Below are positions 32,354-53,661 of a DNA stretch of 57,611 nt, one piece after another. The notes below the pieces were generated by a model that did no database searches, had not been told where the DNA came from, and saw only the letters and a program-made list of their open reading frames with translations. Numbering within the stretch: position 1 is the first letter of the stretch; each line of letters starts with the position of its first letter. The DNA is taken from assembly GCA_030066655.1 (NCBI GenBank), contig JASJBE010000018.1:1-57611 (forward strand). Reading direction: 5' to 3'. The translations under genes were made by a program, and so were the position numbers. The stretch is from Woeseiaceae bacterium. GTDB taxonomy: Bacteria > Pseudomonadota > Gammaproteobacteria > Steroidobacterales > Woeseiaceae.

Positions 32354-33175
32354 TTAGGACCCAGCCTCAATGCGCTGCATCTGATGGTTCCAGCCTCGTA
32401 AGACCAGCCTTTCATTAACGTGATTGTCGCCGCCTTCCTCGAGAACATAGTCATGCCCACCGTACATCTGGACGAGCACCGTCTTGCGATTAGCGTCCGA
32501 TCGATTCGGTGTTGATCCATGTAGGGTCAGGTAGCTAAAGAACACGACGTCTCCGGGTTTCGCGTCAATAGCCAGCGCGTCCTCCAGTGGGTATCTCGCT
32601 GCCAAGTCGGCGGAGGAGTTCAGCGCCGATGCGTCCGAATCGCCAATCGTCCGTCCGGCAGAATTGTCTAAGCGACCGAGCTTGTGCGAGCCGGGAAACA
32701 CGCACAGGCCGCCGGACTCTTCATTTGCGTCTGACAGGAATATGATCGCGGCGATCATCGAGTCGTGACGCGTCGGAAAGTAGGACCAGTCCTGATGAAC
32801 CGGGAACGGTGCGCCTTCACGCGGGGGCTTTTGAAACAACTTCGTGTGATGCAGGATGATATCCGGTCCGAGCAGATCTTCTGCGATGTCCAGGAACTGT
32901 TGATCCTGCAGCGCCGCAAGCCACGTCGCCGAGTAGCGTTGCACATTGTGGGTGTGGATGATGCTGGAAGCGCCGCCATCGAGCTCATCGGTGAATTCAC
33001 CCTCCCATCGCGCATTGATGTCCTCGCCGCTCGCTTCAAGTTGTCGAACGATTCGATCGAAGTCGCTTTCCAGCGTGCGAAGAGAATCGGGGGAAAAGAC
33101 GCCTTTCGCCAGGTAGTAGCCCTGCTCGTTGAAGAATTCGCCGATGTTTTGTGGCTTTTTGTTTACTGCAGGCAC
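32354..33175 (-). CDS. Phytanoyl-CoA dioxygenase (PhyH) family protein
   Basis: A 273-residue Fe(II)/2-oxoglutarate-dependent oxygenase of the PhyH family. The opening EFFNEQGYYLAKGVF is typical. The metal HxD is in VHQDWSYFPTRHDS, the distal His in LTLHGSTPNRSD, and an Arg that would hold 2-oxoglutarate follows at NRK. Members hydroxylate fatty acyl chains, compatible solutes or natural products. It is transcribed away from an AraC regulator (119 bases), which is the typical arrangement for control of a single target. Substrate unknown. Confidence 0.88.
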   Translation of the reverse strand: MPAVNKKPQNIGEFFNEQGYYLAKGVFSPDSLRTLESDFDRIVRQLEASGEDINARWEGEFTDELDGGASSIIHTHNVQRYSATWLAALQDQQFLDIAEDLLGPDIILHHTKLFQKPPREGAPFPVHQDWSYFPTRHDSMIAAIIFLSDANEESGGLCVFPGSHKLGRLDNSAGRTIGDSDASALNSSADLAARYPLEDALAIDAKPGDVVFFSYLTLHGSTPNRSDANRKTVLVQMYGGHDYVLEEGGDNHVNERLVLRGWNHQMQRIEAGS

Positions 33176-33293
33176 GGTGCTGCTCTCACTTCTGCCGATA
33201 GATGAACAACAGTGTTGCGCAGGCGACCGTCTTTCGCCACGCCGGCACCGGTCAAAAAGTTGACGAATTCGGCCACTCTGCTAGTTTTGCTAT

Positions 33294-34196
33294 ATGCACG
33301 ATCAACCGATTCATCACGTCAGTCATGGCCCAGTGCGACGAGTTTCCTTCGATACCGTCGCTCGCAACCGGATTCATCGTCATTCCTACTTCGAGCCATG
33401 TATTGTCATTTCCGGCGCAGGGGACTTCGAGCACGGCGCGGAACGCTATGCTCTTGGGCCCGGCGATCTGTTTCTTGCAGACCCGGGCGTGTACCACGAA
33501 ATACGCTCGCTCAAGTCGAGAGACTTGAAGCTGTATTTCGTGTCGTTCCAGATCGCAATTCGTCGGTCCAAAGATAGAGATCGTTCTGCTGCGCTCACCC
33601 CACAGTCATTGATTACCAGCTTCCTCGCGCGCCACCGCACGCACCTCACTAACCAGTCGGATGTGATTCCGTTATTCGAGTACCTGTACGAGATTGCGAC
33701 GGGCGACGATGCGTTCGAGCAAAGCGCGAACTATCGGGATGCCTCGCTTCTGCTCATACGCCACGTAATGTCAGCGCTGACCTCGTCGGCGTCACTGTCG
33801 GCAGGGGATTACAGTGACCGACAGCAGAAGTCCCGTGTGCAGCGTGCGATCGAAGCGCGTTTGCACGAGTCGTTTCGAATCGAGGAGCTGGCGCGTGCGT
33901 GCGGCATGTCTGAGCGTACGCTACGACGACGCTGGCGCTCCTGGTCCAGCCGTTCTCTCTCGGATGAGATCAATCACCGGCGGATCGAGCGAGCGTGCCA
34001 ACTTCTAATGCTGCCCGATCTGGCCATCGGAGAAATCGGCTATCAGGTTGGGGTCTCGAGTCCGGCACGCTTTTCACGCCTGTTCCGGGATCTGAAAGGA
34101 CTGTCGGCGAGGGAGTATCGGCAGCAGGTCATGCGGGAAACGGCACACGCCATGTCGGGCAGCAATCAGCGAATGACCGAGTACCTCGATGACTGA
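33294..34196 (+). CDS. AraC-family transcriptional regulator
   Basis: A 300-residue regulator with an N-terminal cupin-like ligand-binding domain (RHSYFEPCIVISGAGDFEHG, ALGPGDLFLADPGVYHE) and a C-terminal double HTH (IEELARACGMSERTLRRRW, IGEIGYQVGVSSPARFSRLF). It is divergent from the PhyH gene at 32354 and convergent with a second PhyH gene. The start is an ATG with weak upstream purines. The ligand is unknown; the histidine-containing motif RHSYFE resembles cupin metal sites, which is an observation only. Confidence 0.9.
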   Translation: MHDQPIHHVSHGPVRRVSFDTVARNRIHRHSYFEPCIVISGAGDFEHGAERYALGPGDLFLADPGVYHEIRSLKSRDLKLYFVSFQIAIRRSKDRDRSAALTPQSLITSFLARHRTHLTNQSDVIPLFEYLYEIATGDDAFEQSANYRDASLLLIRHVMSALTSSASLSAGDYSDRQQKSRVQRAIEARLHESFRIEELARACGMSERTLRRRWRSWSSRSLSDEINHRRIERACQLLMLPDLAIGEIGYQVGVSSPARFSRLFRDLKGLSAREYRQQVMRETAHAMSGSNQRMTEYLDD

Positions 34197-34235
34197 GGAA
34201 TGAACGCGTCGGCGCGGTGAGGGAATTCAGTTGGC

Positions 34236-35066
34236 CTAGTTGTTGCCGTATGCGTGCGGGCTGGTCGTCAGCTTGATGTCGTCGTTGTCCGGGCGCGGGT
34301 GATGTTGCCAATGCCCGTACGGGTCTTCGCCCCGGCAGATGATCGCCTCGACGCCCGCTGACCATTCGTCGTCCACGATTCGAACCTCCGGAGGACAATA
34401 GCGGAGCGTCAGTCCGCAACGCCGTCGGCCACTGTGATTCGGTCCGGAGCCGTGGACCAGCATATCCGCATGCAACGAAAACTGGCCGGCCTTCAGCTCA
34501 TCGTAGACTGGCGTACCCATCGCGTCAGCACCGGCTGTCTGCATGTGAAACACAGAATCTGATTCCGTGCCTTCGATCGGCAGGTGTCCCTTGTTATGTG
34601 TGCCGGGTATCCACTGCATGGCCGAGTTCTCGGTATCGGCGTCGTCAATTGCCAGCCACACAGTGACGGTGCGGGCCGGCTGTAGGCCCCAGAATGAAGC
34701 GTCCTGGTGCCAGGGCACGTATTTCTCGCTGCCCGCGGGCTTCGACAGCACAGCCGTTGCCCAACAAACGATGTTGGGTCCAACGATATCCTCGACGTAG
34801 TCGAGAATTCGATCGTCCGTCGCGATATCCCAGATACCGGCCAATCGCGCCTGGTAACAATTGATGCCGAAGGCGCCGTCAGACCCCATGTCCGTCATCA
34901 ACTTGTCGAAATAGGCTCGCAGCCGTGCTACTTCGGCGCTGGAGTAGGCGTCAATCGGTCGCACATAGCCGAGCTCATTGTATTGCTCGATTTCCTGCCG
35001 TGTCAGTTTCGCCGGCGCCGGATTTCTGACCGGCGTAAAGGAAAGGTCCAGTTCTGATGTCTGCAT
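34236..35066 (-). CDS. Second PhyH-family dioxygenase
   Basis: A 276-residue Fe(II)/2-oxoglutarate oxygenase. The metal HxD is in WHQDASFWGLQP, the distal His in DMLVHGSGPNHSGRRR, with the oxoglutarate-binding Arg nearby. It is not a copy of the gene at 32354: openings and loops differ. It is divergent from the AraC gene at 35197, repeating the PhyH/AraC arrangement just upstream. The long loop MQWIPGTHNKGHLPIEG is typical of family members acting on small molecules rather than acyl-CoA. Substrate unknown. Confidence 0.88.
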   Translation of the reverse strand: MQTSELDLSFTPVRNPAPAKLTRQEIEQYNELGYVRPIDAYSSAEVARLRAYFDKLMTDMGSDGAFGINCYQARLAGIWDIATDDRILDYVEDIVGPNIVCWATAVLSKPAGSEKYVPWHQDASFWGLQPARTVTVWLAIDDADTENSAMQWIPGTHNKGHLPIEGTESDSVFHMQTAGADAMGTPVYDELKAGQFSLHADMLVHGSGPNHSGRRRCGLTLRYCPPEVRIVDDEWSAGVEAIICRGEDPYGHWQHHPRPDNDDIKLTTSPHAYGNN

Positions 35067-35196
35067 AGCTCGTCCCCGTATGGGGTATAAGCATAAATTG
35101 CTTTATTTTGGCACATATAGCTCGAAAGTTGACTTTTTATTAGCTTTTTTTGATTATATCTCCTCCGGTCAATTGCTGACCAAAAGGCGCGCCTGG

Positions 35197-36048
35197 ATGC
35201 AGCTGCACACCTTTCGTATCGAAGACTTCATCGGATCTGACGAACACTTTCACTTCGCCAGAAAGACGCTCGGCGCCTCGAAACCGAAGTTCCAGCACTG
35301 CCATGATTTCTACGAAGTGTTCATCGTGACTTACGGTGCAACTCATCATTGGGTCGGTGACGACGTAACGCGGCTCGAAAGAGGCAGCCTGGTTTTCGTG
35401 AGGCCCGGTGACCGACATGCGTTGCAGGCAGTCAGGGGGGAACGAAACGAGATCGTTAACGTCGCGCTGCGACCGGAGATCGTTGAGCACATTGGCCAGA
35501 GATATGGCAGGGATCTCGGGCAGCGATTCTTCTGGCATGAAGGTAGGGAGCCGGACACCTATCACCTTGCCGGCCCCAGGTTGGAACGCGCCATAAACGT
35601 GTCCAGCGAATTGCAGGCGTCGGTGAATACCCTCGCCGCGATAGAGGGCTACTTGCTGACCTTGTTCACCCGGGTTGTCGAGCTGCCGGTCAGTGTCGAC
35701 GACTCCGTACCGCGATGGTTGGTCGCCGCCAGCGATGCAGCGAAGCGACCCGAAGTCTTTCGCCAGGGCGCGGCCGGGTTTGTCAAAGCTGCCGGGCGCG
35801 GCCACGAGCACGTCTGCCGCATGGCCCGGAAACACCTCGGCATGTCGCCGTCCACTTACGTCAATCGAATTCGTATGCAACACGCCGCGCTCATGCTTGC
35901 CGGGAGTGACCAGGCTATTCAGGATATTTCCGCAGACTGCGGCATCGAGAACCTGAGCCACTTCTACAGAGTCTTCCAGCGGCAGTACGGCACAACACCT
36001 CGCCAGTACCGCGTGAATCACCAGAAGAACCCTATGCGGGCAAGCTAG
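35197..36048 (+). CDS. AraC-family transcriptional regulator heading the mannosidase operon
   Basis: A 283-residue regulator with an N-terminal cupin fold (QHCHDFYEVFIVTYGATHHW, LVFVRPGDRHALQAV) and a C-terminal AraC HTH (FYRVFQRQYGTTPRQYR). The start is uncertain: the frame stays open upstream, but MQLHTFRIEDF fits the family opening, and no good Shine-Dalgarno precedes it. It sits one base before the TIM-barrel gene, which starts a tight three-gene operon. Regulator and enzymes are thus co-transcribed, an odd arrangement for AraC proteins. Ligand unknown. Confidence 0.85.
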   Translation: MQLHTFRIEDFIGSDEHFHFARKTLGASKPKFQHCHDFYEVFIVTYGATHHWVGDDVTRLERGSLVFVRPGDRHALQAVRGERNEIVNVALRPEIVEHIGQRYGRDLGQRFFWHEGREPDTYHLAGPRLERAINVSSELQASVNTLAAIEGYLLTLFTRVVELPVSVDDSVPRWLVAASDAAKRPEVFRQGAAGFVKAAGRGHEHVCRMARKHLGMSPSTYVNRIRMQHAALMLAGSDQAIQDISADCGIENLSHFYRVFQRQYGTTPRQYRVNHQKNPMRAS

Positions 36049-36049
36049 C

Positions 36050-36916
36050 GTGAGTGTCCATCTGATAAAAACGGCGTGGGGACTTGTCGGAACCGGCAAC
36101 CGTTACGCGACCCTGTTCGATTTCGTCGAGTCGGCGCGCGACGAGCAATACGTCGGCGTCGAGTTCCCGGTCTTTTACATGGACCTTGAAGATGGCGGCG
36201 CCGCTGGCGTTGCTGGACCGCTCAGAGAACACATCGAGTCGTTGGGCCTCGATTACATCGCGCTGATTGCGACCCGCACGGAACATTGGGGTGACCACGA
36301 TGCGCATCTCGCGAGTTTTCGAGAGCAATGCGAGCTGGCTGCGAGCATGGGCGCGCAACGAGCCGCAGTGCATGCCGGTGCCGACAGCTTCGACGAGAAC
36401 CGGGCACGGCTTTTCCTTGAGGACTGCAGGCGCATAGCACTCGATCTCGGCGTTCAGCCTTGCTTCGAGACGCATCGCGGGCGCATCCTCTTCAATCCGT
36501 TCATATGCGCCAGGATGCTCGAACAGATTCCCGATCTCGAGCTGACGTCGGACCTCAGCCATTGGCTGCTGGTGGTCGATCGTATTCCGAACGACATCAT
36601 GGGTCTGTTCGATCATGCCAGCGAGCGATCGCGGCATTTACATGCCAGGATCGGTCACGAGAAAAGCCCGCAGGTGACAGAGCCCGCCGACCCGTTCTGG
36701 GAACAGCACGTCTCACTGTATCGCCGGTGGTGGCAGATCAGTGTTGATGCGGCGCAGGCTGCAGGATCGGTACTGAGTATCTCACCGGAGTTCGGACCGC
36801 CACCCTATATGCACGCGGAACCTTTTACCCAGAAACCCAGCGGCGACATTGTGGCCGCCAACAACTGGATGCGAGACCAGCTGCGGGACTGGTTCAAAGA
36901 GGAAACAACAACATGA
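36050..36916 (+). CDS. Xylose-isomerase-like TIM-barrel protein
   Basis: A 288-residue protein of the sugar isomerase/epimerase (AP_endonuc_2) superfamily. Metal-ligand positions are visible in CFETHRG (Glu), TSDLSHW (Asp/His), HLHARIGHE (His) and ISPEFGPPPYM (Glu). Members isomerise or epimerise keto-sugars or act on inositol-like compounds. The GTG start follows the AraC stop by one base, and the end overlaps the PanB-like ATG by four bases, so translation is coupled. The reaction is unknown. Confidence 0.85.
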   Translation: MSVHLIKTAWGLVGTGNRYATLFDFVESARDEQYVGVEFPVFYMDLEDGGAAGVAGPLREHIESLGLDYIALIATRTEHWGDHDAHLASFREQCELAASMGAQRAAVHAGADSFDENRARLFLEDCRRIALDLGVQPCFETHRGRILFNPFICARMLEQIPDLELTSDLSHWLLVVDRIPNDIMGLFDHASERSRHLHARIGHEKSPQVTEPADPFWEQHVSLYRRWWQISVDAAQAAGSVLSISPEFGPPPYMHAEPFTQKPSGDIVAANNWMRDQLRDWFKEETTT

Positions 36917-37701
36917 AGAAACTCACCGTCAAGGATCTGCTGGACCTGAAGGGCCAAAGGCCGATGACGCAGGTCAATGTACACACCGATAATGAGGCAC
37001 GGGCCTGTGAGGAAGCGGGTGTCGACATGATCATCACCTGGGAGCGCAGCGACATACGCGCCTTCCGCGCGGCCGCACCGGAGACTTTTTTCTCGGTCGG
37101 GCTCGTCTATGGCCAGTACGTCAATGCAGACGAGGCCAAACGCGCTGCGTTTACGGCGATGGAGAAGGGCGCCGATGCGATCTACTGCCCGATGAGCCTG
37201 GACGTCGTTGAGGCCCTGGCGAAGGAAGCGATTCCCGTGCACGGGCATGTCGGTTTTGTACCGTACAAGAACACATGGACTGGTGGTTTCAAGGCAGTCG
37301 GCAAGAACGCCGAGGATGCGTACGCCGTATTCGAACGGGCAAAGGCCTATGAGAATGCGGGTGCGATGGCTATCGAGGTCGAGCTGATACCCCAGGAAGT
37401 GGCCGCCGAGATATCAAAACGCGTCAGCATCCTGACGGTCGGTATGGGTGCCGGTACCGGTTGCGATGCGCAGTACCTCTTTGCAAAGGACATCCTCGGG
37501 TACAACGACGGGCACATCCCGAGGCATGCGAAAATCTACCGCGACCATCGCTCGGAGTTCGAGCGCCTGTACAACGACAGCGTCAGCGCCTTTCGAGAAT
37601 TCTCTGAGGAAGTGCAAGGCGGGCAGTTCCCCGCGCGCGAAAATTCGCTGACAATAGAAGCAGAGGAACTGAAGGCTTTCCAGGAAAAGCTGGGCGCCTG
37701 A
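36913..37701 (+). CDS. PanB-like protein with altered active site
   Basis: A 262-residue protein of the ketopantoate hydroxymethyltransferase (PanB) fold. The C-terminal half matches well: VHGHVGFVPY, GAMAIEVELIP with the conserved Glu157, VGMGAGTGCDAQ and GHIPRHAKIY. By manual alignment the N-terminal active-site motifs of PanB are missing: the VGDS metal Asp region reads ITWERSD, the ADLPF metal Asp region reads SVGLVYG, and the substrate Lys region reads AIYCPMS. So it is unlikely to make ketopantoate and more likely performs another aldol or retro-aldol reaction on an oxo-acid. Its neighbours are sugar-degrading genes, with the GH38 gene five bases downstream. Confidence 0.83.
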   Translation: MKKLTVKDLLDLKGQRPMTQVNVHTDNEARACEEAGVDMIITWERSDIRAFRAAAPETFFSVGLVYGQYVNADEAKRAAFTAMEKGADAIYCPMSLDVVEALAKEAIPVHGHVGFVPYKNTWTGGFKAVGKNAEDAYAVFERAKAYENAGAMAIEVELIPQEVAAEISKRVSILTVGMGAGTGCDAQYLFAKDILGYNDGHIPRHAKIYRDHRSEFERLYNDSVSAFREFSEEVQGGQFPARENSLTIEAEELKAFQEKLGA

Positions 37702-37706: not shown

Positions 37707-40700
37707 ATGCCCAAGCGCAAGCCAAAGGACGAAGATCGTAGCCCGGACCTGCCCAAGGACTGGGTTCAGCGACACATCGATAGACTGTTTGAGCAGAGTT
37801 GGTATAACCCTGTCGAACTCGGTGATTGGCAGTACCAGCGCTCACACCTGACGGGTCGGGGCACCTACAAGCCGATCGACTCGGATTGGCGGTCGATAAA
37901 GGTCGGGGAAACCTGGGGCGGGCCCGATACGACGGTGTTCCTTCGCCATGCGCTGACTATCCCGGCCAGCCACGCCGGACCCGATACCTACCTCGACATC
38001 GACATGGATGGAGGCGAGACCCAGCTCCGTATCAACGGCAGGCCCTGGCAGGGGTTGGACCATTTTCGCAGTCTCGTACCGCTCGGCGAGTTCGCCGTTG
38101 AGGGTGAGCGGCTCGAGCTCGAGCTGGAAGCCTTTACGATCAACTATCCCTACGACGAGCGTCGCAACGACAAACGCGATTACCACTGCTTCGAGCGCGC
38201 CAACCTGGTGCTTCGCGATCCAGCAATCGAGAGTTGTGCCTACGACCTTGCGTTCGCGCTGGACGCCTACCTGTTCTACTGGCAGCAGGAAGATGCCGCC
38301 GAAGTGGAAGGCTTCATCCTGTCGCACCTAGAAGCAGCCTGCCGACTCATTGGGACAACCACTGAAGACCGGGAGGCGCTGCGCGAGGCGGCGACAGCAG
38401 CCAGCCAGCATCTGCACAAGCATGTTTTCGGGTCGCCGTATTATCGGCACGCCGGGACTATCAGCACGATTGCGCACTCGCATCTGGATGTCGTCTATCT
38501 CTGGCCGATCAAAGAGACGCTTCGCAAGAACGGCAGGACCACGAGCAACGCGCTCAGCCTGCTAAGGGAGTATCCGGAGTACGTGTTCAGTCAGAGCCAA
38601 CCGTATCTGTACGACAGGCTCAATGAGCACTATCCGGAATTGATGGCGGACGTTCGATCGATGGTCGCCGAGGGTCGCTGGGAGGCAGTTGGCGCGATGT
38701 ACATCGAGCCGGATGCCAACCTGCCAGGCGCCGAAAGCTGGGTTCGCCACATCCTGTTCGGCAAGCGCATCCTCCGCGATCTGTTAGGCACGGACTCGAG
38801 GGTGTGCTGGTTGCCGGATGTGTTCGGTGCCATGTACACGCTTCCCCAGATACTGAAGAAGGCCGGCATCGACTATTTCCTCACGGCGAAACTGAATATC
38901 TGGAACGACACGAACAATTTCCCGTACGACTCGTTTCGCTGGCGGGGTCCAGACGGTAGTGAGGTAGTTGCCCATTTTCCACCAACGCACTTCGCGCAGG
39001 ACTACACCTACGCCAATCTGAAGCGTCACTGGGGCGACTATGCCGAGAAATTCACGGCCGGCGAGAACCTTTTCATATACGGCTGGGGCGATGGCGGCGG
39101 AGGGCCGACTCGGCAGATGCTGGAGTACAGTCGTCGCGCGCAACAGATGCCGGGCCTGCCCCGCGTGCAGTCATCGCGGGCCGACGCATTCTTCGATCGC
39201 CTCGCCAGCCGGGCCGAGTCGTTGCCGGTATGGGACGACGAGCTGTATATGGAGGGGCACCGCGGGACCTATACCTCGCGCGGCGAACTGAAGCGCAAGA
39301 ATCGCCGGGCCGAGCTGTTGTACCGCGACATCGAGATCCTGAGCAGCCTCGCGCAGCCCTTCGGCGGTCCGCGCATCCAGGAGCGGCTGAACGAGGGCTG
39401 GAAGCGCCTGCTGCTGAACCAGTTCCACGATACGCTGCCGGGTACTCATGTTGCCGAGGCCGACCCCGATATCCAGCGCGACTACGACGAAGTGTTTGCC
39501 GTCGGCGAGTCCATTCGCGACGAACTGACAGCATTTTTCGCTGACCGCGTTGCCGGCACGTCCGATTTCCTGTTGTTCAACACGCTGGGTAATCGCGAGT
39601 CTCTGGTACGCGTTGAGTTGGGCGATTCCAGCGCGTCGGCGGTGTCACTGTCCGGCGGGGAGGTCGTTCCGCTACAACGCGATGGGGAGCACGGCTACTT
39701 CGAGGCGCGACTGCCGTCTGTCGGCTGGACGAGCGCAAAGTTGTCTTCGGAGGATGCGGGTGCGGCACAGGACACGGCCGAGTTCAGCGACAACCAGATA
39801 GAGACGCGGCACTACCGGATCCGGATCGATGATGAGCATGGCAGCCTGGCCGAAATCTACGACAAGCAACACGACCGGCAGGTCCTGGATGCAGCCGGCA
39901 ACGCTTTCCAGGTATTCGAAGACGATCCCGGAAAAAAGTTTGGCGGCTGGGACGTTGCCTACCACCTCGAGGAATACGCTTACCCGGTTAGTCAGGTCAC
40001 GCCGTGGACGCTGATCTGCAACGGTCCGGTCTTCGCCAGGTTCCGCAGCGAGTGGCGTGTCCTGAACAGCACGATTCGCCAGGATCTCGTGGTTTACGCG
40101 AAGAGCAGGCGCATCGATTTCGAGACACAAGTCGATTGGCAGGATTCGAAGAAGCTACTCAAGGTCGGATTTCCGCTGGCTGTTCGGTCGCGCAGCGCCA
40201 CCTACGATCTTCCGTTCGGGCATATTGAACGAGCCACGCACCGAAACACCGGCTGGGAGCAGGCGAAGTTCGAAGTGTCGGGGCACAAGTGGGCGGACAT
40301 GTCGGAAGGTGACTATGGCGTCGCGCTGCTCAGCGATTGCAAGTATGGCTATGACGCACACGAGAATCGTCTGCGACTGACGCTTGTGCGTAGTCCGGTG
40401 CATCCTTATCGCGACAGCGACATTGGTCGCCACGACTTCAACTACAGCCTACTTCCGCACAGTGGCGGTTGGCGGGATGCGTGTGTCGACGCGCAGGCCT
40501 ATGATTTCAACTGCCCGGTGTTATCGGTAGCTCTTAAGTCTGCGACGGAACGGGCCGAAAAACTGCCCGAGCACTATTCATTGCTGTCGCTGGACGCTGA
40601 CAGTGCGATTATCGAGGTGATCAAACAGGCCGAGGACGGTGATGGACTGATCCTGCGGATCTTCGACAGCCATGGAACCCATCGACGCGTTCGTGCAAGC

Positions 40701-40844
40701 GTAAGCCCGGCGCTCGCGTCGGCTGCAATGACCGACCTGTTGGAGGAGGAACTTGACGTTGTTCCCGTCGACAGCGACATCGAGCTTCGGTTCGCGCCCT
40801 ACGAGATCAAGACCCTTCGACTGGTGCTGAAGAAGTCGGCGTAA
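37707..40844 (+). CDS. GH38 alpha-mannosidase
   Basis: A 1045-residue family GH38 retaining alpha-mannosidase. The catalytic zinc motif HSHLD is at residues 257-261, the nucleophile Asp371 in WLPDVFGAMYTLPQ, and the later zinc/His segment is LLNQFHDTLPGTHV. A C-terminal beta domain completes the protein. There is no signal peptide, so it acts in the cytoplasm on an imported glycoside. Bacterial homologues act on mannosylglycerate (in phosphorylated form for MngB) or on mannan fragments. Position after the PanB-like gene suggests the aglycone is processed by the same operon. It converges on the cupin gene two bases away. Confidence 0.93.
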   Translation: MPKRKPKDEDRSPDLPKDWVQRHIDRLFEQSWYNPVELGDWQYQRSHLTGRGTYKPIDSDWRSIKVGETWGGPDTTVFLRHALTIPASHAGPDTYLDIDMDGGETQLRINGRPWQGLDHFRSLVPLGEFAVEGERLELELEAFTINYPYDERRNDKRDYHCFERANLVLRDPAIESCAYDLAFALDAYLFYWQQEDAAEVEGFILSHLEAACRLIGTTTEDREALREAATAASQHLHKHVFGSPYYRHAGTISTIAHSHLDVVYLWPIKETLRKNGRTTSNALSLLREYPEYVFSQSQPYLYDRLNEHYPELMADVRSMVAEGRWEAVGAMYIEPDANLPGAESWVRHILFGKRILRDLLGTDSRVCWLPDVFGAMYTLPQILKKAGIDYFLTAKLNIWNDTNNFPYDSFRWRGPDGSEVVAHFPPTHFAQDYTYANLKRHWGDYAEKFTAGENLFIYGWGDGGGGPTRQMLEYSRRAQQMPGLPRVQSSRADAFFDRLASRAESLPVWDDELYMEGHRGTYTSRGELKRKNRRAELLYRDIEILSSLAQPFGGPRIQERLNEGWKRLLLNQFHDTLPGTHVAEADPDIQRDYDEVFAVGESIRDELTAFFADRVAGTSDFLLFNTLGNRESLVRVELGDSSASAVSLSGGEVVPLQRDGEHGYFEARLPSVGWTSAKLSSEDAGAAQDTAEFSDNQIETRHYRIRIDDEHGSLAEIYDKQHDRQVLDAAGNAFQVFEDDPGKKFGGWDVAYHLEEYAYPVSQVTPWTLICNGPVFARFRSEWRVLNSTIRQDLVVYAKSRRIDFETQVDWQDSKKLLKVGFPLAVRSRSATYDLPFGHIERATHRNTGWEQAKFEVSGHKWADMSEGDYGVALLSDCKYGYDAHENRLRLTLVRSPVHPYRDSDIGRHDFNYSLLPHSGGWRDACVDAQAYDFNCPVLSVALKSATERAEKLPEHYSLLSLDADSAIIEVIKQAEDGDGLILRIFDSHGTHRRVRASVSPALASAAMTDLLEEELDVVPVDSDIELRFAPYEIKTLRLVLKKSA

Positions 40845-40846: not shown

Positions 40847-41224
40847 CTAGGCAGTGCGCCCGTAACGGTCGTCGTAGCGCTGGATATCGTCTTCAACGAG
40901 AATCGAACCCGTCTGAACCTCGATGAAGCGCATCGGTTCTTCGCCGACATTGGCAATGCGGTGTTTCGCCTTGAGCGGGATAAACACGCTCTCGTTGACG
41001 CCGCGGTGCGAGACAGTATCGCCAACGGTAACTTCGGCGACACCCTGAACGACGATCCAGTGTTCGGCGCGATGCTCATGTGACTGCAACGAAAGGACTT
41101 CGCCCGGATTGACGATGATTTCCTTAATGGCATAGCCGTCGCCGGTGCCCAGCACCGTCCATTTGCCCCACGGCCGGTCGTCTGACTCTCCGGGCTTATA
41201 CGTGTTCGTTGCTTTCGTCGACAC
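40847..41224 (-). CDS. Mannose-6-phosphate isomerase-type cupin
   Basis: A 125-residue single cupin domain matching the isomerase domain found at the C-terminus of ManC/AlgA-type enzymes: DDRPWGKWTVL, a metal motif SLQSHEHRAEHWIVVQG and VFIPLKAKHRIANVG, then FIEVQTGSILVEDDI. It would convert mannose-6-phosphate to fructose-6-phosphate, which fits mannose released by the GH38 enzyme. No mannokinase is seen in the window. The start overlaps the end of the importer ATPase gene by 29 bases, so it belongs to the importer operon. Confidence 0.85.
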   Translation of the reverse strand: MSTKATNTYKPGESDDRPWGKWTVLGTGDGYAIKEIIVNPGEVLSLQSHEHRAEHWIVVQGVAEVTVGDTVSHRGVNESVFIPLKAKHRIANVGEEPMRFIEVQTGSILVEDDIQRYDDRYGRTA

Positions 41225-45187: not shown

Positions 45188-46957
45188 TCAGGGTCCCCCG
45201 TCGGCTTTCTCAAGTTGGTGAATGATCAGGTGTGTACTGTTCCACCAGTGCATCGGATGGACGTAGAAATCATTGGCGCGAGGCCATCCGGTCCAGTGCG
45301 TCTCATTAAAAGACAGCACCTTCGCGGCCTGCACCAACGGGATGAATGGCGTCTCGGCGTCCAGTTCACGATAGGCCTCGGCGACAAGCCCGGGGATCTG
45401 TGGGTCGCCCAGGGACAGCTGCCCGATGCGATTTACGACGGCCGTGTATCGATCGGTCGCGTCGGTATCCCATCGCCCGGTGTTGTTGTAGCCGGGCGCG
45501 CGCTCACCAATTGGAGCCATGCTGTTGTTCGTGTAACGGACCATGGAAGCCCAGGGTTCGTTGACCGAGCCGCAGGATAACCAGCTGTAACTCATCTCGT
45601 AGTCACCGAGAGGAATTACCTCGCCCCAGAACACGCCGTCTTCGACCGGAACCGACCGGGCGTCGATACCGGCGCGCTGCAGCTGTTCGACGAGCAGGTC
45701 GACCGTGCCGGTCGTTTCTGCCGACGCCGTGTTTGCCAGTATGCGTGTGGTTAAAGGTACACCATCCTTCACGTAGGTCCCGTCGTCGCCCATCGAGTAT
45801 CCGTTGTCTTCAATGATCGCGTGTGCTGCCTCCAGATTCGCCCGGGTCGGCAGCTCATAGCCTGCGTCCACCACCGCGTCTATAAATGGTTGCATGGCAC
45901 CGTACTGCACGAACATGGTCTTCGACGGCACCGTCGAGCCCTCGTAGACGATATCGATGATCTGTTGCCTGTCGACGATATGGGCAATCGCCTTGCGCAT
46001 CGCCGGATTGTCCCAGGGCTCGACCGTCGCGTTGATTTCGAGCTGGCGAGGGCAGGGGTCGGTCCAGCTGTACGGGAAGCCGTCATGCCAGGAGACAACG
46101 TTGGGATTCCTTGCCTGAATGGCTTCAAAGATTCCAAGTGCGAGATGCTGGCCGGCATCGAGTTGATTGCTTCGAAGCAGCTGAGCCCGGTTCTCCTGGC
46201 CGCCTGTCTCGATCCACACCAGGCGTTTCGGCGCCGGTAGCTCAAGAAAGCCGGCCCTCGCACCCCACCAGTTGTCGTCGCGGTCCCAGATGGCGCGCTG
46301 CGACGTCGCCGAGCTGAATGTGTAAGGCCCCGTGCCGATTGGCGGAAAGAAGTCGAAACTTCCGACGGTCTGGCCGCGCCAGATGTGCTCGGGCATGACG
46401 AGGAATGAACTGAAGTTCAGGACGCCGAAGTTCTCAATATGAAAGCCGGGGTTCGGCTGCTTAAGCCGGAATTGAATGGTATGGCTGTCGATCTTCTCAA
46501 CGTCGTCGACCTGCGCCTTGAAGCGGATGGCCTCCCGGGCGCTGATCGCGTCAGAGTCCATCAGCATGCGGGCCGTGAACTCGACATCGTCGGCATCGAA
46601 GGCTTCACCATCCGACCATTCGACGCCCTGTCGCAGTACGAGGGTCCATACGTCATGCGACGCGTTACTCTCGATGCTGAGGCCCAGCCAGGGCTCAAGC
46701 TCGCCGTTGGCATAGTTCAGGACGAACAGGGGTTCCCACATGGCCTGGTGAGCACCATGCAGTCGTTTCACTCCTGGCGTCAGCCAGTTGAAGTTGCGTG
46801 GGTTCTTGATGCTGCGATCAAGGTCGAAGATGACCGTATCTTCGCGAGCGATGGGCGCGTCGCCGGACATAGGGTCACGGTAAGGAATGGCGATCAGCGC
46901 CAGCAGGACTGCGACGCCCAGGGCGCCGAGTACCAGCTGTTTGCCCCGCCGTCCCAT
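45188..46957 (-). CDS. Family 5 extracellular solute-binding protein
   Basis: A 589-residue binding protein with an N-terminal hydrophobic segment (residues 7-26) that may be an uncleaved anchor, since no clear signal-peptidase or lipobox site follows. The SBP_bac_5 domain begins VIFDLDRSIKNPRNFN and contains VWTLVLRQGVEWSDGEAFDA. Family members bind peptides, nickel, or oligosaccharides. It sits between the HisD-like gene and the permeases. Its large size (E. coli DppA is about 535) is within range. Confidence 0.88.
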   Translation of the reverse strand: MGRRGKQLVLGALGVAVLLALIAIPYRDPMSGDAPIAREDTVIFDLDRSIKNPRNFNWLTPGVKRLHGAHQAMWEPLFVLNYANGELEPWLGLSIESNASHDVWTLVLRQGVEWSDGEAFDADDVEFTARMLMDSDAISAREAIRFKAQVDDVEKIDSHTIQFRLKQPNPGFHIENFGVLNFSSFLVMPEHIWRGQTVGSFDFFPPIGTGPYTFSSATSQRAIWDRDDNWWGARAGFLELPAPKRLVWIETGGQENRAQLLRSNQLDAGQHLALGIFEAIQARNPNVVSWHDGFPYSWTDPCPRQLEINATVEPWDNPAMRKAIAHIVDRQQIIDIVYEGSTVPSKTMFVQYGAMQPFIDAVVDAGYELPTRANLEAAHAIIEDNGYSMGDDGTYVKDGVPLTTRILANTASAETTGTVDLLVEQLQRAGIDARSVPVEDGVFWGEVIPLGDYEMSYSWLSCGSVNEPWASMVRYTNNSMAPIGERAPGYNNTGRWDTDATDRYTAVVNRIGQLSLGDPQIPGLVAEAYRELDAETPFIPLVQAAKVLSFNETHWTGWPRANDFYVHPMHWWNSTHLIIHQLEKADGGP

Positions 46958-46995: not shown

Positions 46996-48267
46996 TCATG
47001 AATACCGCTCGACACGAAGATCGGCCTGCGCCTTGTGACCTGCAAACCCTTCGATCGCACACAGGCGGGAACAGTATTCGCCGATGCCCCGTGTCGCCGA
47101 CGGGTCGACACGCTGATATGTGCAAGTCTTGATGAACTTGCCGACCCAAAGGCCACCCGTGTACCGCGCAGCGCGACCGGTTGGGAGTGTGTGATTAGTG
47201 CCGATGACCTTGTCGCCGTAAGCCACGTTGGTTTCCGGACCAAGGAACAGAGCGCCGAAGTTCCGCAGCCTGCTAAGGAAGAAGTCGGGGTCTTTCGTGA
47301 TGATCTCGACGTGTTCAAACGCAAGGTCGTCTGTTACACGAAGCATCTCTTCGTCATCTTCGCACAGAATAATCTGCCCATAGTCTTCCCAGGCTCTACC
47401 CGCGATGTCGGCGGTCTCCAGTGTCTCGAGCTGCCGCTCTATTTCGTCGGGCAGCGCGTCGGCAAGCGCCCTGGACGTTGTAACGAGCACCGACGGCGAG
47501 TTGAATCCGTGTTCGGCCTGGCCGAGCAGGTCGGTCGCAGCCATCTCAACATCGCAGCTTTCGTCTGCGACGACCACGGTCTCGGTCGGCCCGGCCAGCA
47601 GATCGATACCCACCCGGCCGAAGACTTGTCGCTTCGCTTCAGCGACATACTCGTTGCCGGGACCGACAATCATGTCGACCGGCGCAATCGTCTCCGTGCC
47701 GATCGCCATGGCAGCAATGGCCTGAACGCCGCCGAGACAATAGATTTCGTCGGCCCCACCCAGGTGCATGGCGGCCACGACCGCGGCGTTCGGTTTGCCT
47801 TCGAACGGTGGCGAACAGGCAATGACGCGAGAGACGCCGGCGACCTTTGCGGTAACGACCCCCATGTGTGCTGACGCGACCAAGGGATACTTGCCGCCCG
47901 GCACGTAGCAACCCACGGAGCTGACCGGAATGTTCTTATGCCCGAGAAAGACGCCGGGCAAAGTCTCGACCTCGATGTCTGCAAGCGCGTCTTTTTGTGC
48001 TTGCGCGAAGTTTCGAACCTGTTCCTGCGCGAATTTGATGTCTTCGATGACGGAATCGTCCAGCGACTTTACACAGGCCTCGATTTGGGCTTCCGTCAGC
48101 CGAAACGCGTCCGGCGCCCAACGGTCGAATTTCTCTGAGTACTCGAGCACTGCGCTGTCGCCTCGGGTCTCAACGGAATGCAGGATATCTTCTACAGCTC
48201 TGCGAACTCGTTGGCTGTCGTCGGACTTTTGCTGTCGGGATACACCCGACTTGAGCGTAATGGCCAT
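46996..48267 (-). CDS. Histidinol-dehydrogenase-like alcohol dehydrogenase
   Basis: A 423-residue HisD-family protein. Residues matching HisD zinc ligands are kept: Gln/His in LLGQAEHG, Asp in [15 protein letters not shown] and the C-terminal His in [12 protein letters not shown]; the catalytic Glu-His pair is in AFEHVEI. No other his gene is nearby, so it is not for histidine synthesis. HisD paralogues such as HpsN oxidise small diols to carboxylic acids with NAD, and the [16 protein letters not shown] pattern recalls that group. I chose ATG 48267 over 48288 because GGGGGA lies upstream. It leads the importer operon, so it probably oxidises the imported compound or its aglycone. Confidence 0.87.
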
Positions 48268-48438
48268 GCGGTTGGATTCCCCCACCATGTCAGTGTCACT
48301 AAGGATCTGCGACGGTCGGCTGTGCGCCTGTTGTTCCCCGGATATTCACGAGTCGGGGCCGGTTGTGTTCCCGCCGCCGCAATTTGCCTCAGTATAGCCG
48401 TCGATGCGACGGAATGTACACTGGAAACATCACTTTTC

Positions 48439-48629: not shown

Positions 48630-48677
48630 CTGTCGAACAACGCCAAAAGGGATAAAGGGGGCGCTGGCGCGTTAACA

Positions 48678-49052
48678 ATGATCAGCGGTTTGGATCACGT
48701 GAACATCGAGACGCTCGATCTCGAATCCAGTGTGCAGTTCTACACGCGGGTTCTGGGGCTTGAAGATGGGTGGCGTCCGTCATTCGATGTGCCCGGCGCA
48801 TGGCTGTACGTCGGTGATCAACCCATCGTTCATCTTGTGGTCAGGGATTCCATCAACGACGGTCCGACAGGCGCGATTCACCACGTCGCGCTCAAGGCGT
48901 CAGATCTCGAGGCAACACTACAGCGCCTCGCGGACGCCGGCGTTGACTACAAGAAGACCGTCGTACCCGACCTCTCGGTGACGCAACTCTTCGTCACAGA
49001 CCCGAATGGCGTGATGCTGGAACTGAATTTCTACGCTGACACCGTGGAGTAA
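48678..49052 (+). CDS. VOC (glyoxalase-fold) family protein
   Basis: A 124-residue vicinal-oxygen-chelate protein. Metal-ligand positions are His in LDHVNIE, His in AIHHVALKA and Glu in VMLELNFYAD. The fold is used by lyases, epimerases, isomerases and dioxygenases. I prefer ATG 48678, which fits the family start; a longer reading from 48600 covers the promoter. It leads the TBDR gene by 61 bases, so they are probably one transcript. Its reaction is unknown. Confidence 0.82.
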   Translation: MISGLDHVNIETLDLESSVQFYTRVLGLEDGWRPSFDVPGAWLYVGDQPIVHLVVRDSINDGPTGAIHHVALKASDLEATLQRLADAGVDYKKTVVPDLSVTQLFVTDPNGVMLELNFYADTVE

Positions 49053-49113
49053 CGACAAACACAACATTTCGAACATTGTCATCTGAATACCCGAAATGGG
49101 GGGGTTAAAAGCA

Positions 49114-51687
49114 ATGAAGTACAAACAGAAACTCGCTGCAGTACTGGCAGGCCTGGTGCCTGCGATGGCGCTGCTGCTAAGTGGTCCTGCAGGCGCTCAA
49201 GGTGCCGACGATGAGGAAGAACCACGTAACGTGCTCGAGGAAGTCATCGTTACCGGTACGACGCGGCAGGGTGTGAGGGTTCTCGAGTCATCTGTCGCCA
49301 TTACGGCAATCAACGAAGAAGCCCTGGACCGTGACGTACCGTTCGGCCTCGTCGATACGCTGAAGGCGGTGCCGGGGCTGTTCGTGCAAGAATCTGGTGG
49401 ACAAACCTCCAACAGCATCGGTGTTCGTGGCCTGCCGTCAACGGCTCAGCTCGCGTTCATCAGCGTTCAGGAGGACGGTCTGCCTGTCAACTATGAGCGC
49501 TACACGGTCGACGCCGTACAGCGTTACAGCATCGGTATAGAACGTGTCGAGGCAACCCGCGGCGGTACGTCCGGCGTACTGGCGCCCAACGGCGCTGGCG
49601 CCATCGTCAATTACATCTACAAGAAGGGTGGTGACGACCACGAGGGAACCCTGAAGCTGTCGTTGTCAGATTTCGGTAACACGCGCACTGACTTCTTCTA
49701 CGGCGGTCCGCTGTCGGACGAATGGAAAGTCGCTCTCAGTGGTTACTACATGTACGGTGATACGCCGCGCGAGAATGACTTCAACGGTGAGCGCGGTGGC
49801 GAGTTTCGCATCAACCTGACCCGTGAACTGTCGAACGGTGAACTGAACATCACCTACAAGAAGGTCGACGAGAGCAACTCATTCATCCTCCCGCTTCCGG
49901 TAGCCAGGGACCCCGACTCGGGGACGCTGTCCGAGATTCCCGGCTTCGACCTCAATCACGGCAACGTAACGGGCTTTGACAACTCCCGGACTCGCATCCT
50001 GTTTGCGAGTGGCGAGGTGTTGGAGCAGAACACGGTCGATGGCGCGGATGCCGAGGCTGACGTAGTAACCATCGGACTCGAGTGGGATTTCGAGAACGAC
50101 TGGTTCCTGCGCCACCAGAGCCGCGTCAGCGATCTCGATCGTCTGTTCAACGCGCACTTCACTGGTTCTGCGGGTGGCATCAGTATTCTCCCCGCAGAGT
50201 TATACCTGACTGATGATTCGATCAATTTTGTCGGCGCGGGCTACGGCACCGTCGGCGACTTCTACGCGGCGAATCCGGGTACGGACCGGTGCTTCCAGTA
50301 CGTTACGTCGAAAGAACTGCTGTGCGCCGGCGACCCTGCACTCGATAGCCTGAACGGCAACGGTCTTGCCCAGATCCTGAACTCGTTGCGTGAGCCCATT
50401 TCGCGACGCCAGTTCATCAGCGATACGCGCCTGACCTGGGAAACGGACAATAACAGCCTGTCATTCGGCGCCATGCTGATCGATCTCGATCACAACCGCG
50501 CCCTGGCCTCCAGCCTGTTCATGAGCGAAGTGACCTCGGATAATCCGCAGGTGCTGGACATCGTCGCCTACGACCCGGTGAGCGATAGTGTCCAGGCATT
50601 CTTGAGCGACGGCGGTGTTGTGAAGCACGGTCAGTGGCGTGGCGATGATGATGTTCAGGTCAAGTCGCTGTCCCTGTATGTCAACGACGAATACCAGGTC
50701 AACGACGATCTGCGTCTCGATTTCGGCCTGCGTTGGGAGGATATCGAGTACCAGGCTGTTTCTCTGAATGGTCTCGGCGACCGGGTAATCGTGGCCGGCG
50801 CCTTCGATTCTGATGGCAACGATGTCGACAACATCACGGCAAACAACTACGCCAATCGACTGAAGGGCAATGGCGGCACGTCACGTCGCACGGTCGAGTA
50901 CGATGAAATCTCATGGACGATCGGTTTTAACTACCTGCTGACGGATACCCTGGCACTGTACGGTCGCTACGCTGAGGGCTACCAGACGCCCAGGGCGGAC
51001 CGACTCGGCGACATCGTTCTGAACACGCCGCCGCCGCAGGGCCAGGTCGATGCACCGCTGCAGGAAGTGGAGTTGGCTGAGCTGGGTATTCGTTACTCCG
51101 GCGATACGATCGCTGCGTCTGTAACGCTGTACAACACGCAATTCCCGAGCCTCCTGACCGGCGGCTTCGGGTTTGACTCTGGCGGAACGCAGGTGCTGAA
51201 CCAGGCAGAGCTTGATGTCACCGGCGCTGAGTTCGACCTGACCTGGACGCCGACTGACTGGGCAACGCTGCAACTGGCGGGTGTTATCCAGAGCGGTGAG
51301 CTCGATAGCTTCAACACGCCGGCCGGTGCTGCCTTCAACGGCAACCAGGTGGCGAGGACGCCTGACGAGCAATTCCGTCTGAACGCGAGCTTCTTCCCGA
51401 CTGACCAGATTACGGTTTTCGCCGATTATCACTGGTTGGGCGATCGCTTCGGCGCAAACGACAATGTCGTGAAGTTCGATTCCTGCGGCAATCTGGGTCT
51501 CGGAGCATCGTACGCGGCCACGGATAACCTGACGTTCCAGATCAAGGGAAAGAACATCACCAACGAGATCTGCTATACGGAAGGCAATCCACGCGCAACG
51601 GTAGCGCAAAACCTGTTGCAGCTCGGTTACGCGCGACCGATCGTAGGTGCGACCTACATCGTCTCTGCGCAGTTCGACTTCTTCTGA
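49114..51687 (+). CDS. TonB-dependent outer-membrane receptor of the mannoside cluster
   Basis: An 857-residue TBDR with a signal peptide (residues 1-29, ending GAQG region), TonB box EEVIVTGTT, plug (SIGVRGLPSTAQLAFISVQ, ERVEATRGGTSGVLAPNGAG) and a barrel ending SAQFDFF. I chose ATG 49114, preceded by a run of Gs. The next gene is an HpcH/HpaI aldolase and a divergent unit encodes an ABC importer, so the receptor is probably the outer-membrane entry for the same substrate. Confidence 0.92.
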   Translation: MKYKQKLAAVLAGLVPAMALLLSGPAGAQGADDEEEPRNVLEEVIVTGTTRQGVRVLESSVAITAINEEALDRDVPFGLVDTLKAVPGLFVQESGGQTSNSIGVRGLPSTAQLAFISVQEDGLPVNYERYTVDAVQRYSIGIERVEATRGGTSGVLAPNGAGAIVNYIYKKGGDDHEGTLKLSLSDFGNTRTDFFYGGPLSDEWKVALSGYYMYGDTPRENDFNGERGGEFRINLTRELSNGELNITYKKVDESNSFILPLPVARDPDSGTLSEIPGFDLNHGNVTGFDNSRTRILFASGEVLEQNTVDGADAEADVVTIGLEWDFENDWFLRHQSRVSDLDRLFNAHFTGSAGGISILPAELYLTDDSINFVGAGYGTVGDFYAANPGTDRCFQYVTSKELLCAGDPALDSLNGNGLAQILNSLREPISRRQFISDTRLTWETDNNSLSFGAMLIDLDHNRALASSLFMSEVTSDNPQVLDIVAYDPVSDSVQAFLSDGGVVKHGQWRGDDDVQVKSLSLYVNDEYQVNDDLRLDFGLRWEDIEYQAVSLNGLGDRVIVAGAFDSDGNDVDNITANNYANRLKGNGGTSRRTVEYDEISWTIGFNYLLTDTLALYGRYAEGYQTPRADRLGDIVLNTPPPQGQVDAPLQEVELAELGIRYSGDTIAASVTLYNTQFPSLLTGGFGFDSGGTQVLNQAELDVTGAEFDLTWTPTDWATLQLAGVIQSGELDSFNTPAGAAFNGNQVARTPDEQFRLNASFFPTDQITVFADYHWLGDRFGANDNVVKFDSCGNLGLGASYAATDNLTFQIKGKNITNEICYTEGNPRATVAQNLLQLGYARPIVGATYIVSAQFDFF

Positions 51688-51760: not shown

Positions 51761-51849
51761 TCAGACGCACGCTCCCGCAGCGACAGTTCACAGTGCAGAG
51801 AGAAACACGGCACTACGGCCGCAAAACAGAATAAGAACGGGATCCGAAG

Positions 51850-52620
51850 ATCAACGCGACAAAGCAAAAGCTGATGAGCGGCGAAGCAACCTGTGGCGCT
51901 TTCCTGCAGATCAACAGTCACATCTCGGCAGAGATCCTATCTCAGGCTGGTTTCGACTGGTTGATTGTCGACATGGAGCACGCGCCTGTCGATCTGGATT
52001 CGCTGTTGCATCAACTTCAGGCGATGGGTAATTCGGGGAACTGTGTGCCATTTGTCCGCTCGCCCTGGAACGATGCTGTTGCCATCAAACGCATCCTTGA
52101 TGCGGGGGCGCTTGGCATCGTTATCCCTTACGTCAATACCAAAGCTCAGGCCGAAGCGGCTGTCTCGGCGTGCAAGTTTCCCCCGGATGGTACGCGCGGC
52201 GCCGCGATGAGTCCGCGCGCCGCTCGCTATGGTTCAATGAGCTCCGAGTATTTCGCGAAAGCCAATGAGGAGACCGTCGTCATCGTGAGCGTCGAGACCA
52301 AGGACGCGATCCAAAACCTCGATGAGATACTCTCTGTTCCTGGGATTGACGGGATTTTTATCGGTCCAATGGACCTTGCGGTCAGCCTCGGGCACAACGA
52401 CGTTCAGTGCGAACCGGTCCGTGCGGCAATCGCAGAAATCGAAAACAAAGTGCTTAAGTCGGACAAGTTCCTGGGGACAATCGCTACCGACTGGAACAAG
52501 GCGAAAGCCTGCTACGAGCGCGGATACCAGTGGTTAATTCTGATGCAGGACGGGCTGGCGCTCGCATCGATGGCGGATACGGTTGTGCGGCGCTTTCGCG
52601 GCGAGGTCCCGGGCAACTAG
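51850..52620 (+). CDS. HpcH/HpaI family aldolase with a probable ATC start
   Basis: A pyruvate-type aldolase of about 256 residues, or 248 if read from the first ATG at 51874. The family pattern is clear: VDMEHAP (active His), VRSPWND (Arg), VSVETKDA (Glu ligand) and GPMDLA (Asp ligand). Homology with HpaI extends eight codons upstream of that ATG (INATKQKL), and an in-frame stop lies at 51832-51834. The only start that restores the family N-terminus is ATC at 51850, with GGGA seven bases upstream. Members cleave 2-keto-3-deoxy-type acids to pyruvate and an aldehyde. It likely performs the final cleavage in the cluster. Confidence 0.87.
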   Translation: MNATKQKLMSGEATCGAFLQINSHISAEILSQAGFDWLIVDMEHAPVDLDSLLHQLQAMGNSGNCVPFVRSPWNDAVAIKRILDAGALGIVIPYVNTKAQAEAAVSACKFPPDGTRGAAMSPRAARYGSMSSEYFAKANEETVVIVSVETKDAIQNLDEILSVPGIDGIFIGPMDLAVSLGHNDVQCEPVRAAIAEIENKVLKSDKFLGTIATDWNKAKACYERGYQWLILMQDGLALASMADTVVRRFRGEVPGN

Positions 52621-52638
52621 CCTGACGTCCACCGACCG

Positions 52639-53661
52639 TCAGTAAACATTCTCCGACAGGTAAATCTCGACCCGAGGTTGTCGAACGCTCAATTCGACGC
52701 TCTCCCGCTTCTTGTGCCTGACCAACAGCTCGATCGCACTGAAGACTTCGTGTCGTATGTCCTGGTTGATGATGACATCTATTGTGTTGTTAATGAGGTA
52801 GCGGCGCGTCAGCTCGCTAAGCTCATGCGCGATGAACACAACGTCACCATCCTTGCCTCTCTCGATTAACGCTTTCGCAATACCGTCTGTTGCGCCAGCC
52901 GTGTTGTAGATGCTGACCAGATCGGTCTTTGTATCGAGCATTCGGCACGCTTCCTCGAATGAGACGTCGTTATCGAAATGCGGACTCAGCGCATCGATGA
53001 CTTTAAAGCGAGGAAATCGCTCCCGAATCATGCTCTTGAAACCTGCTTCCCGCTCCTCGTGACCGCGATAGCTGGGCCTGCCGGGAAACAACGCAATGGA
53101 ACCGGCTTCCTTATCGCTCAGAAACCGGCCCATCAGAAGCGCAGCCGTCCTGCCGGCAGCCCGGTTGTCGAGGCCGACATACGCGAGTCGACTGGAACGA
53201 GAAAGATCCGACACCAGGCTGACTAAACCGACACCTTCTTTCGATAGCGTGTCTACGGCTTCACGGACAATTGGATGGTCCAGCGCTACGAAGGCAATTC
53301 CATCCGTGTCGGTGCCAACTTCGATGAGTTTCTCCGCGAGAATTTCAGGCTCGAGTCCATCAACCATGTGCGACTGAACGCGGGAGTTGAGTCGTGAAAA
53401 TGCCAGTTGAGACTTCTCAATTTCTTTCGTGAAGCTGTCGAAATAGCCGGTCTTTAGAATCGGAAAGACAAAATCAAACTTGTAGATGATGTTGCCGTCA
53501 CGCTCGGCGAGGGGGCCAATGAAATAGTTGGTGTTGAACACCGCGCGGTAGACGCGCTCGGCGGTGCTTTGCTTGACGTTGCCGCGTTCATTGAGAACGC
53601 GGTCAACCGTCGCTCGGCTGACCCCCGCTTTCTGCGCTACATCATCAAGGGTGACTTTCAT
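52639..53661 (-). CDS. LacI-family transcriptional regulator
   Basis: A 340-residue regulator. The N-terminal HTH is VTLDDVAQKAGVSRATVDRV, followed by a hinge helix and a periplasmic-binding-protein-like effector domain (DGIAFVALDHPIVREAV, LAYVGLDNRAAGRTAALLMG). It converges on the aldolase gene 19 bases away and probably controls the cluster. The effector is likely a sugar or a sugar-acid product of the pathway; the sequence does not say which. Confidence 0.92.
   Translation of the reverse strand: MKVTLDDVAQKAGVSRATVDRVLNERGNVKQSTAERVYRAVFNTNYFIGPLAERDGNIIYKFDFVFPILKTGYFDSFTKEIEKSQLAFSRLNSRVQSHMVDGLEPEILAEKLIEVGTDTDGIAFVALDHPIVREAVDTLSKEGVGLVSLVSDLSRSSRLAYVGLDNRAAGRTAALLMGRFLSDKEAGSIALFPGRPSYRGHEEREAGFKSMIRERFPRFKVIDALSPHFDNDVSFEEACRMLDTKTDLVSIYNTAGATDGIAKALIERGKDGDVVFIAHELSELTRRYLINNTIDVIINQDIRHEVFSAIELLVRHKKRESVELSVRQPRVEIYLSENVY

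Follow-up and report, generated by a model that had tools for sequence, protein, structure and literature searches.

The stretch analysed here, called the window below, comprises 57,611 nucleotides and is contig C45 of the Woeseiaceae genome G000 (3.61 Mb, 167 contigs, 91% complete). It carries an island of 18 genes at 32354..53661, which we read, with a probability of about 0.4, as a laterally acquired system that would take up a methylated alpha-mannoside and O-demethylate it oxidatively, with a protein resembling PanB (ketopantoate hydroxymethyltransferase) as the acceptor of the one-carbon unit. A TonB-dependent receptor (TBDR) and an Opp-type ABC system would import a mannose-containing oligosaccharide, from which a cytoplasmic Ams1-like GH38 alpha-mannosidase would free mannosyl units. 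O-methyl groups would leave as formaldehyde through the action of one or both of two PhyH oxygenases, and the PanB-like protein would take up this carbon, most likely onto tetrahydrofolate. A TIM barrel and a cupin would isomerise the sugar; the carbon skeleton, once oxidised, would be cleaved and the resulting aldehyde or alcohol oxidised by an HpaI aldolase and a HisD-like dehydrogenase. PhyH1 is the candidate demethylase; PhyH2 would act on the imported compound as part of a conserved core. The direct observations behind this reading are which genes are present, how closely they are spaced, how far they are conserved, and what lies next to members of the PanB-like family and next to the PhyH2-ABC-GH38 core.

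Gene content and layout of the island

The genes, with their order and coordinates, were identified from a listing of open reading frames (ORFs) and from Pfam and NCBIfam scans of 32354..53661. Every enzyme, transporter and regulator named in a preliminary description of this DNA was located there. In the following list, percentages are protein identities, G107 is a second Woeseiaceae genome with the corresponding locus L002, and the GH38 loci are a sample of 20 introduced below.

32354..33175, minus: PhyH1, Fe(II)/2-oxoglutarate oxygenase, proposed O-demethylase (PF05721, 128.6 bits; HQD at 127; 85% in L002; 53-55% beside the core in 5/20 GH38 loci)
33294..34196, plus: AraC1 regulator (HTH_18, AraC_binding; 82% in L002)
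34236..35066, minus: PhyH2, Fe(II)/2-oxoglutarate oxygenase of the conserved core (PF05721, 93.5 bits; HQD at 120; 15/20 GH38 loci)
35080..36048, plus: AraC2 regulator, start uncertain (HTH_18; ORF opens at 34978; 11/20 GH38 loci)
36050..36916, plus: xylose-isomerase-like TIM barrel (PF01261, 30.1 bits, just under the cut-off of 31.1; 49% near the PanB-like gene in L003-L005)
36913..37701, plus: PanB-like protein, proposed one-carbon acceptor from formaldehyde to folate (PF02548, 157.1 bits from residue 49 on; under both NCBIfam PanB cut-offs; PanB fold; relatives with oxygenase neighbours)
37707..40844, plus: GH38 alpha-mannosidase, Ams1-like (four GH38 domains; best PDB match an Ams1 fusion, 438 bits)
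40847..41224, minus: mannose-6-phosphate-isomerase-type cupin (PF01050, 125.7 bits)
41196..42224, minus: ABC ATPase 2, OppF/DppF type (Pfam/NCBIfam scans)
42205..43206, minus: ABC ATPase 1, OppD type (Pfam/NCBIfam scans)
43213..44154, minus: ABC permease C (Pfam/NCBIfam scans; 66-75% in 16/20 GH38 loci)
44154..45182, minus: ABC permease B (Pfam/NCBIfam scans; 69-75% in 16/20 GH38 loci)
45188..46957, minus: SBP_bac_5 solute-binding protein (PF00496, 184.8 bits; 56-63% in 16/20 GH38 loci)
46996..48288, minus: HisD-like four-electron alcohol dehydrogenase of a third subfamily by its GKYPL motif (best PDB match HpsN, 391.5 bits; TIGR00069, 469 bits)
48675..49052, plus: VOC-superfamily protein (PF00903, 50.4 bits; 70% in G107)
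49096..51687, plus: TBDR (PF00593, PF07715; 86% in G107)
51874..52620, plus: HpaI/GarL-type pyruvate aldolase (PF03328, 138.2 bits; under equivalog cut-offs; 80% in G107)
52639..53661, minus: LacI regulator (PF00356, PF13407; 87% in G107)

Operon-like spacing is seen on both strands. The TIM barrel, PanB-like and GH38 genes overlap or lie 5 bp apart, and the reverse-strand run of HisD-like dehydrogenase, binding protein, permeases, ATPases and cupin has overlaps or gaps of at most 38 bp. The AraC2 frame, if opened at 34978, overlaps PhyH2 by 89 bp, so a start at 35080 or later is more likely; the ATG of the VOC gene was read at 48675. Both PhyH proteins combine PF05721 with the HxD...H triad of Fe(II)/2-oxoglutarate oxygenases, and the importer has the SBP_bac_5 protein, two permeases and two oligo_HPY ATPases of an Opp-type system. 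The N, middle and C domains of the GH38 protein score above their cut-offs, and the motifs taken for its zinc site and nucleophile are present. Like Ams1-type alpha-mannosidases, which include its best PDB match, the window protein is built of GH38 domains; unlike them, it is encoded by a bacterial gene in an operon with PanB-like and TIM barrel genes. A motif search found short activity-type motifs in PhyH1, PhyH2, GH38, HisD-like, HpaI and TIM barrel proteins; their roles are literature-based for HisD and presumed for the others.

The PanB-like protein and its relatives

The PanB-like protein is probably mislabelled as a vitamin B5 enzyme. Its fold is that of PanB, since its structural model (pLDDT 87.1) gave PanB as the best match in both Foldseek and VIA-align. 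Against the two NCBIfam PanB models it scored 140.2 of 272 bits and 122 of 207.55 bits, below both cut-offs. In the alignment with E. coli PanB, the island protein differs at three sites: an invariant glycine (Gly63) stands at D84, tyrosine at K112, and proline (Pro93) or another residue at E114. D84 and E114 presumably form the metal site of the E. coli enzyme. A separate, full-length true PanB with metal-ligand motifs is encoded elsewhere in the genome. An assignment of the island protein to pantothenate synthesis was rejected on the grounds of the lost metal-ligand aspartate and this second gene.

An alignment of the PanB-like family was scanned against genome contigs, which gave 185 stretches with a relative. 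The best 80 were taken, and neighbours were counted at 79 loci, as the match in L060 was split over two frames. A MocD-like oxygenase was found at 53 of these loci, the MocE Rieske ferredoxin at 47 and MocF at 32; in L003 and L004, MocD and MocE lie upstream of the PanB-like gene. Five loci (L009, L011, L028, L041, L070) have a PhyH gene immediately upstream on the same strand. Two annotated plasmid loci, from 30 matches listed, show the order desaturase-family oxygenase, MocE, FAD oxidoreductase, PanB-like gene and purU, followed in one by folD.

The plasmid order, with a PanB-like gene after mocDEF-type genes and before purU, resembles the mocDEF system of rhizopine catabolism, which we assume to act in O-demethylation. 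Excerpts from one study describe MocE as a Rieske oxygenase of rhizopine (3-O-methyl-scyllo-inosamine) catabolism (PMC3927591). The island differs from that system in its PhyH oxygenases, GH38 and Opp-type importer, and in that neither genome of the Woeseiaceae pair (G000 and G107) gave a MocD match with the L003 MocD as query at E <= 1e-10, which sets the pair apart from the MocDEF type. Both genomes carry PhyH1 instead. Because of this, and because PhyH lies directly upstream of the PanB-like gene at five other loci, PhyH1 is considered the candidate demethylase.

Genomes G108 and G109 hold nine PF02548 genes, counting both island copies and leaving out the top-scoring PanB; for six of the nine, a MocD relative is found no more than about 2.5 kb away. 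Such further MocD/PF02548 pairs inside a single genome suggest that several methylated compounds are handled by parallel systems. A PanB-like gene, MocD and a GH4 glycosidase occur together, with parts of a sugar-type ABC importer nearby, at nine alphaproteobacterial loci (L016, L018, L019, L022, L023, L034, L035, L037, L038); the GH4 cluster is present at 11 PanB-like loci in all.

It is possible, although we hold this more tentatively than the reading of the island itself, that a widespread family whose members are labelled 3-methyl-2-oxobutanoate hydroxymethyltransferase in fact traps, with folate, the formaldehyde set free by oxidative O-demethylases of the MocDEF, FA-hydroxylase, PhyH and TauD types, and so acts as their partner in the catabolism of methylated sugars and inositols. 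The window member would then belong to a new PhyH/GH38 pathway that degrades O-methylated alpha-mannosides, for example those found in algal N-glycans.

Recurrence, spread and the conserved core

All 18 island genes recur at 64-92% identity in G107, a metagenome-assembled genome (MAG). L002 holds the run from PhyH1 to HisD (64-92%, with HisD at 83% over its full length), and VOC (70%), TBDR (86%), HpaI (80%) and LacI (87%) follow further along the same contig. The preliminary description had held that a lack of recurrence in other genomes would count against the island, and the gene set was found again. Among 107 genomes of the window's family, two have a PanB-like protein of at least 80% identity, and these two are also the ones in which the binding protein is found at E <= 1e-80; some PanB-like relative at E <= 1e-20 is present in 16. 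Among 369 genomes drawn from the class, the binding protein was found at E <= 1e-100 in the window's own genome only. This patchy spread suggests that the island was acquired laterally.

To the left of the island, the window (229-29053) encodes a CoxE-like VWA protein, a prolyl oligopeptidase, an amidohydrolase, a TonB receptor, an S51 peptidase, a TPR transcription regulator and PurU. Eighteen left-hand ORFs, 11 of them without annotation, served as BLAST queries, and none had a G107 match beyond PhyH1 in about 5 kb of L002 and 18 kb of L111. The window PurU (formyltetrahydrofolate deformylase; 10800-11648, minus) is 50% identical to rhizobial PurU beside PanB-like genes; as it lies about 21 kb from the island, it is perhaps an ordinary, unrelated gene.

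Outside the family, L003 (Mameliella sediminis) and L004 (an alphaproteobacterial MAG) carry the PanB-like protein (70-76%), the TIM barrel (49%), PhyH2 (58-62%), the importer (binding protein 57-59%, permeases 68-73%, a fused ATPase 50-51%), GH38 (34%) and AraC2-type regulators. In Mameliella, a distance of 18 kb on one contig separates the PanB-like gene from a HisD-like gene (64%), which lies near LacI, Gfo/Idh/MocA and enolase-superfamily genes. A draw of 394 genomes from the family to which the Mameliella genome belongs (presumably Rhodobacteraceae) included 32 with a GH38 of this type at E <= 1e-40, those of L003 and L004 among them. Loci of 14-20 kb were sampled from 20 of the other 30 genomes, mostly the best-scoring. 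PhyH2, binding protein, both permeases, ATPase and GH38 occur together in 15 of these 20 loci, and importer and GH38 in 16; AraC2 is present in 11, PhyH1 in five and the TIM barrel in one. The core therefore consists of PhyH2, the Opp-type importer and GH38, mostly with an AraC regulator, and the PanB-like protein with the TIM barrel, HisD-like, cupin, VOC, HpaI and TBDR genes are accessory to it. Of the preliminary description, the idea of a recurrent island for mannoside breakdown that combines uptake across both membranes with GH38 and oxidative enzymes is supported; its single conserved pathway of all genes is not.

Within the sampled loci, median identity is 52% for GH38 and 76% for the binding protein. 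The window GH38 is only 32-36% identical to those of the 20 loci, trailing the binding protein and permeases (56-75%), and may therefore have been exchanged or be changing fast. In L003 (12740-13420) and L004 (12648-13337), a gene for an MBL-fold (Lactamase_B_3) protein separates the PhyH2 gene from that of the binding protein.

Alternative readings and what the island may mean

Several results weigh against demethylation with capture of the methyl carbon by the PanB-like protein. The PanB-like gene is present in none of the 20 sampled GH38 loci; conversely, only L002, L003 and L004 of the 79 PanB-like loci have the importer and GH38, and the family at large is thus not tied to mannosides. Co-occurrence across genomes is weak, with a PanB-like gene in 8 of 32 GH38-bearing and 42 of 362 other genomes, and in L005 the PanB-like and TIM barrel genes lie near housekeeping genes, the GH38 of that genome being with an importer on another contig. 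The folate link is thin (by profile, PurU at 11 of 79 loci and FolD at none). Seventeen of the 79 loci have no match to the MocD, MocE or PhyH profiles; ten neighbour proteins from ten of these comprised two FA_hydroxylases, one TauD, one PurU and six that were neither. Three of the nine PF02548 genes and three MocD relatives in G108 and G109 are unpaired, and many of the 79 loci come from related rhizobia. Moreover, we know of no PhyH enzyme that O-demethylates a sugar, and we infer from the genes the substrate and its methylation, the PhyH and PanB-like reactions, and the order and cellular location of the steps.

A tentative but serious alternative is an alpha-mannoside system that involves no demethylation, in which the PanB-like protein carries out an unrelated aldol reaction, and PhyH1 and PhyH2 hydroxylate another part of the substrate or cleave an ether other than a methyl ether. 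It is consistent with a core that mostly lacks PanB-like, MocD and MocE genes, with the MBL-fold hydrolase that 15 of the 20 GH38 loci carry and the window lacks, and with the nearest models of PhyH1 and PhyH2, which are, far below the cut-offs, ectoine and methylphosphonate hydroxylases and chlorinating enzymes. This alternative leaves unexplained why PanB-like relatives stand beside oxygenases at most loci of several phyla, and why, in L003 and L004, MocD and MocE accompany the PanB-like gene where it has joined the core. The MocD and MocE profiles matched none of the 20 GH38 loci, a result that we list among the evidence for demethylation.

It is unlikely, but conceivable, that the island consists of two unrelated adjoining units, one running from PhyH through TIM, PanB-like, GH38 and ABC genes to HisD, the other comprising HpaI, TBDR and VOC under LacI control and serving another sugar acid. 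Only in the Woeseiaceae pair were close relatives of HpaI, VOC, TBDR and LacI found beside the island with the cut-offs applied. HisD-like paralogues (63-69%) also form separate clusters (L122 in G000:C146, L123, L124 and L125), which share LacI-type, cupin, SnoaL, alpha/beta-hydrolase and MetE-C-domain genes and include an HpaI-like gene (31-33%) in G000 and G107. Against such a division, both units stand side by side in G107, and the TBDR would serve the same uptake route. The HpaI-like gene in the paralogue clusters hints that the HisD-like enzyme would oxidise the aldehyde released by the aldolase. The window aldolase matches Pfam HpcH_HpaI and falls short of the equivalog cut-offs (209.4 of 368.8 for HpaI, 197.9 of 406.75 for GarL).

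Among solved proteins, DHPS dehydrogenases come nearest to the HisD-like enzyme with 391.5 and 379 bits, against at most 306.7 bits for histidinol dehydrogenases. It passes the TIGR00069 domain cut-off, and another HisD-family gene (39%) lies at G000:C59. With HpsN, its closest solved relative, it shares the catalytic Glu-His and Asp and the zinc residues. According to excerpts from PMC11382572, His126 in GRY(A/S)H marks HpsN, and HisD has G-S-A-P-L. The window protein reads GKYPL instead of either motif, and its paralogues at 63-69% read GKYPM or GKFPM; by this motif criterion they form a third group, predicted not to act on sulfonates. HpsN itself (sulfopropanediol 3-dehydrogenase) was rejected as an assignment, as leucine replaces the sulfonate-recognising histidine.

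Mannosylglycerate (digeneaside) or a mannosylated branched polyol, both proposed in the preliminary description, is a very improbable substrate: the chemistry is conceivable, with GH38 action and a HisD-like enzyme that oxidises a glycerol-type alcohol, yet the Ams1-like GH38 scores 131.8 of 1138 bits, about 1000 short, against the mannosylglycerate hydrolase model NF007331, the metal ligand for a PanB-type cleavage is not conserved in a family whose usual neighbours are oxygenases, and such a substrate would require no oxygenase.

For O-demethylation of a mannoside, algal O-methyl mannose is a candidate substrate. Chlorella vulgaris N-glycans bear 3-O-methyl and 3,6-di-O-methyl mannose at non-reducing ends (PMC6344472), and such terminal residues would suit an exo-acting Ams1-like GH38 and two oxygenases. 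A non-exhaustive literature search found no described route for O-methylated mannosides. A precedent for methoxy-sugar demethylation with release of formaldehyde is porphyran breakdown, in which marine Flavobacteriia demethylate 6-O-methyl-D-galactose with a P450, ferredoxin and ferredoxin reductase (PMC10033563, in part). The proposed system would be similar in the oxidative demethylation of an algal methoxy sugar beside glycosidases; it differs in that the porphyran route is based on P450 and galactose, and the partial text of PMC10033563 contains no occurrence of tetrahydrofolate.

The reassignment of the PanB-like family is the most valuable lead of this analysis. If the proposal is correct, an enzyme family that bears the wrong name and ranges from rhizobia to marine MAGs would gain a testable function, and the demethylation of methoxy sugars would gain a one-carbon sink. 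It would also define a horizontally spread module for methyl-bearing mannosides, for example those of algal glycoproteins.

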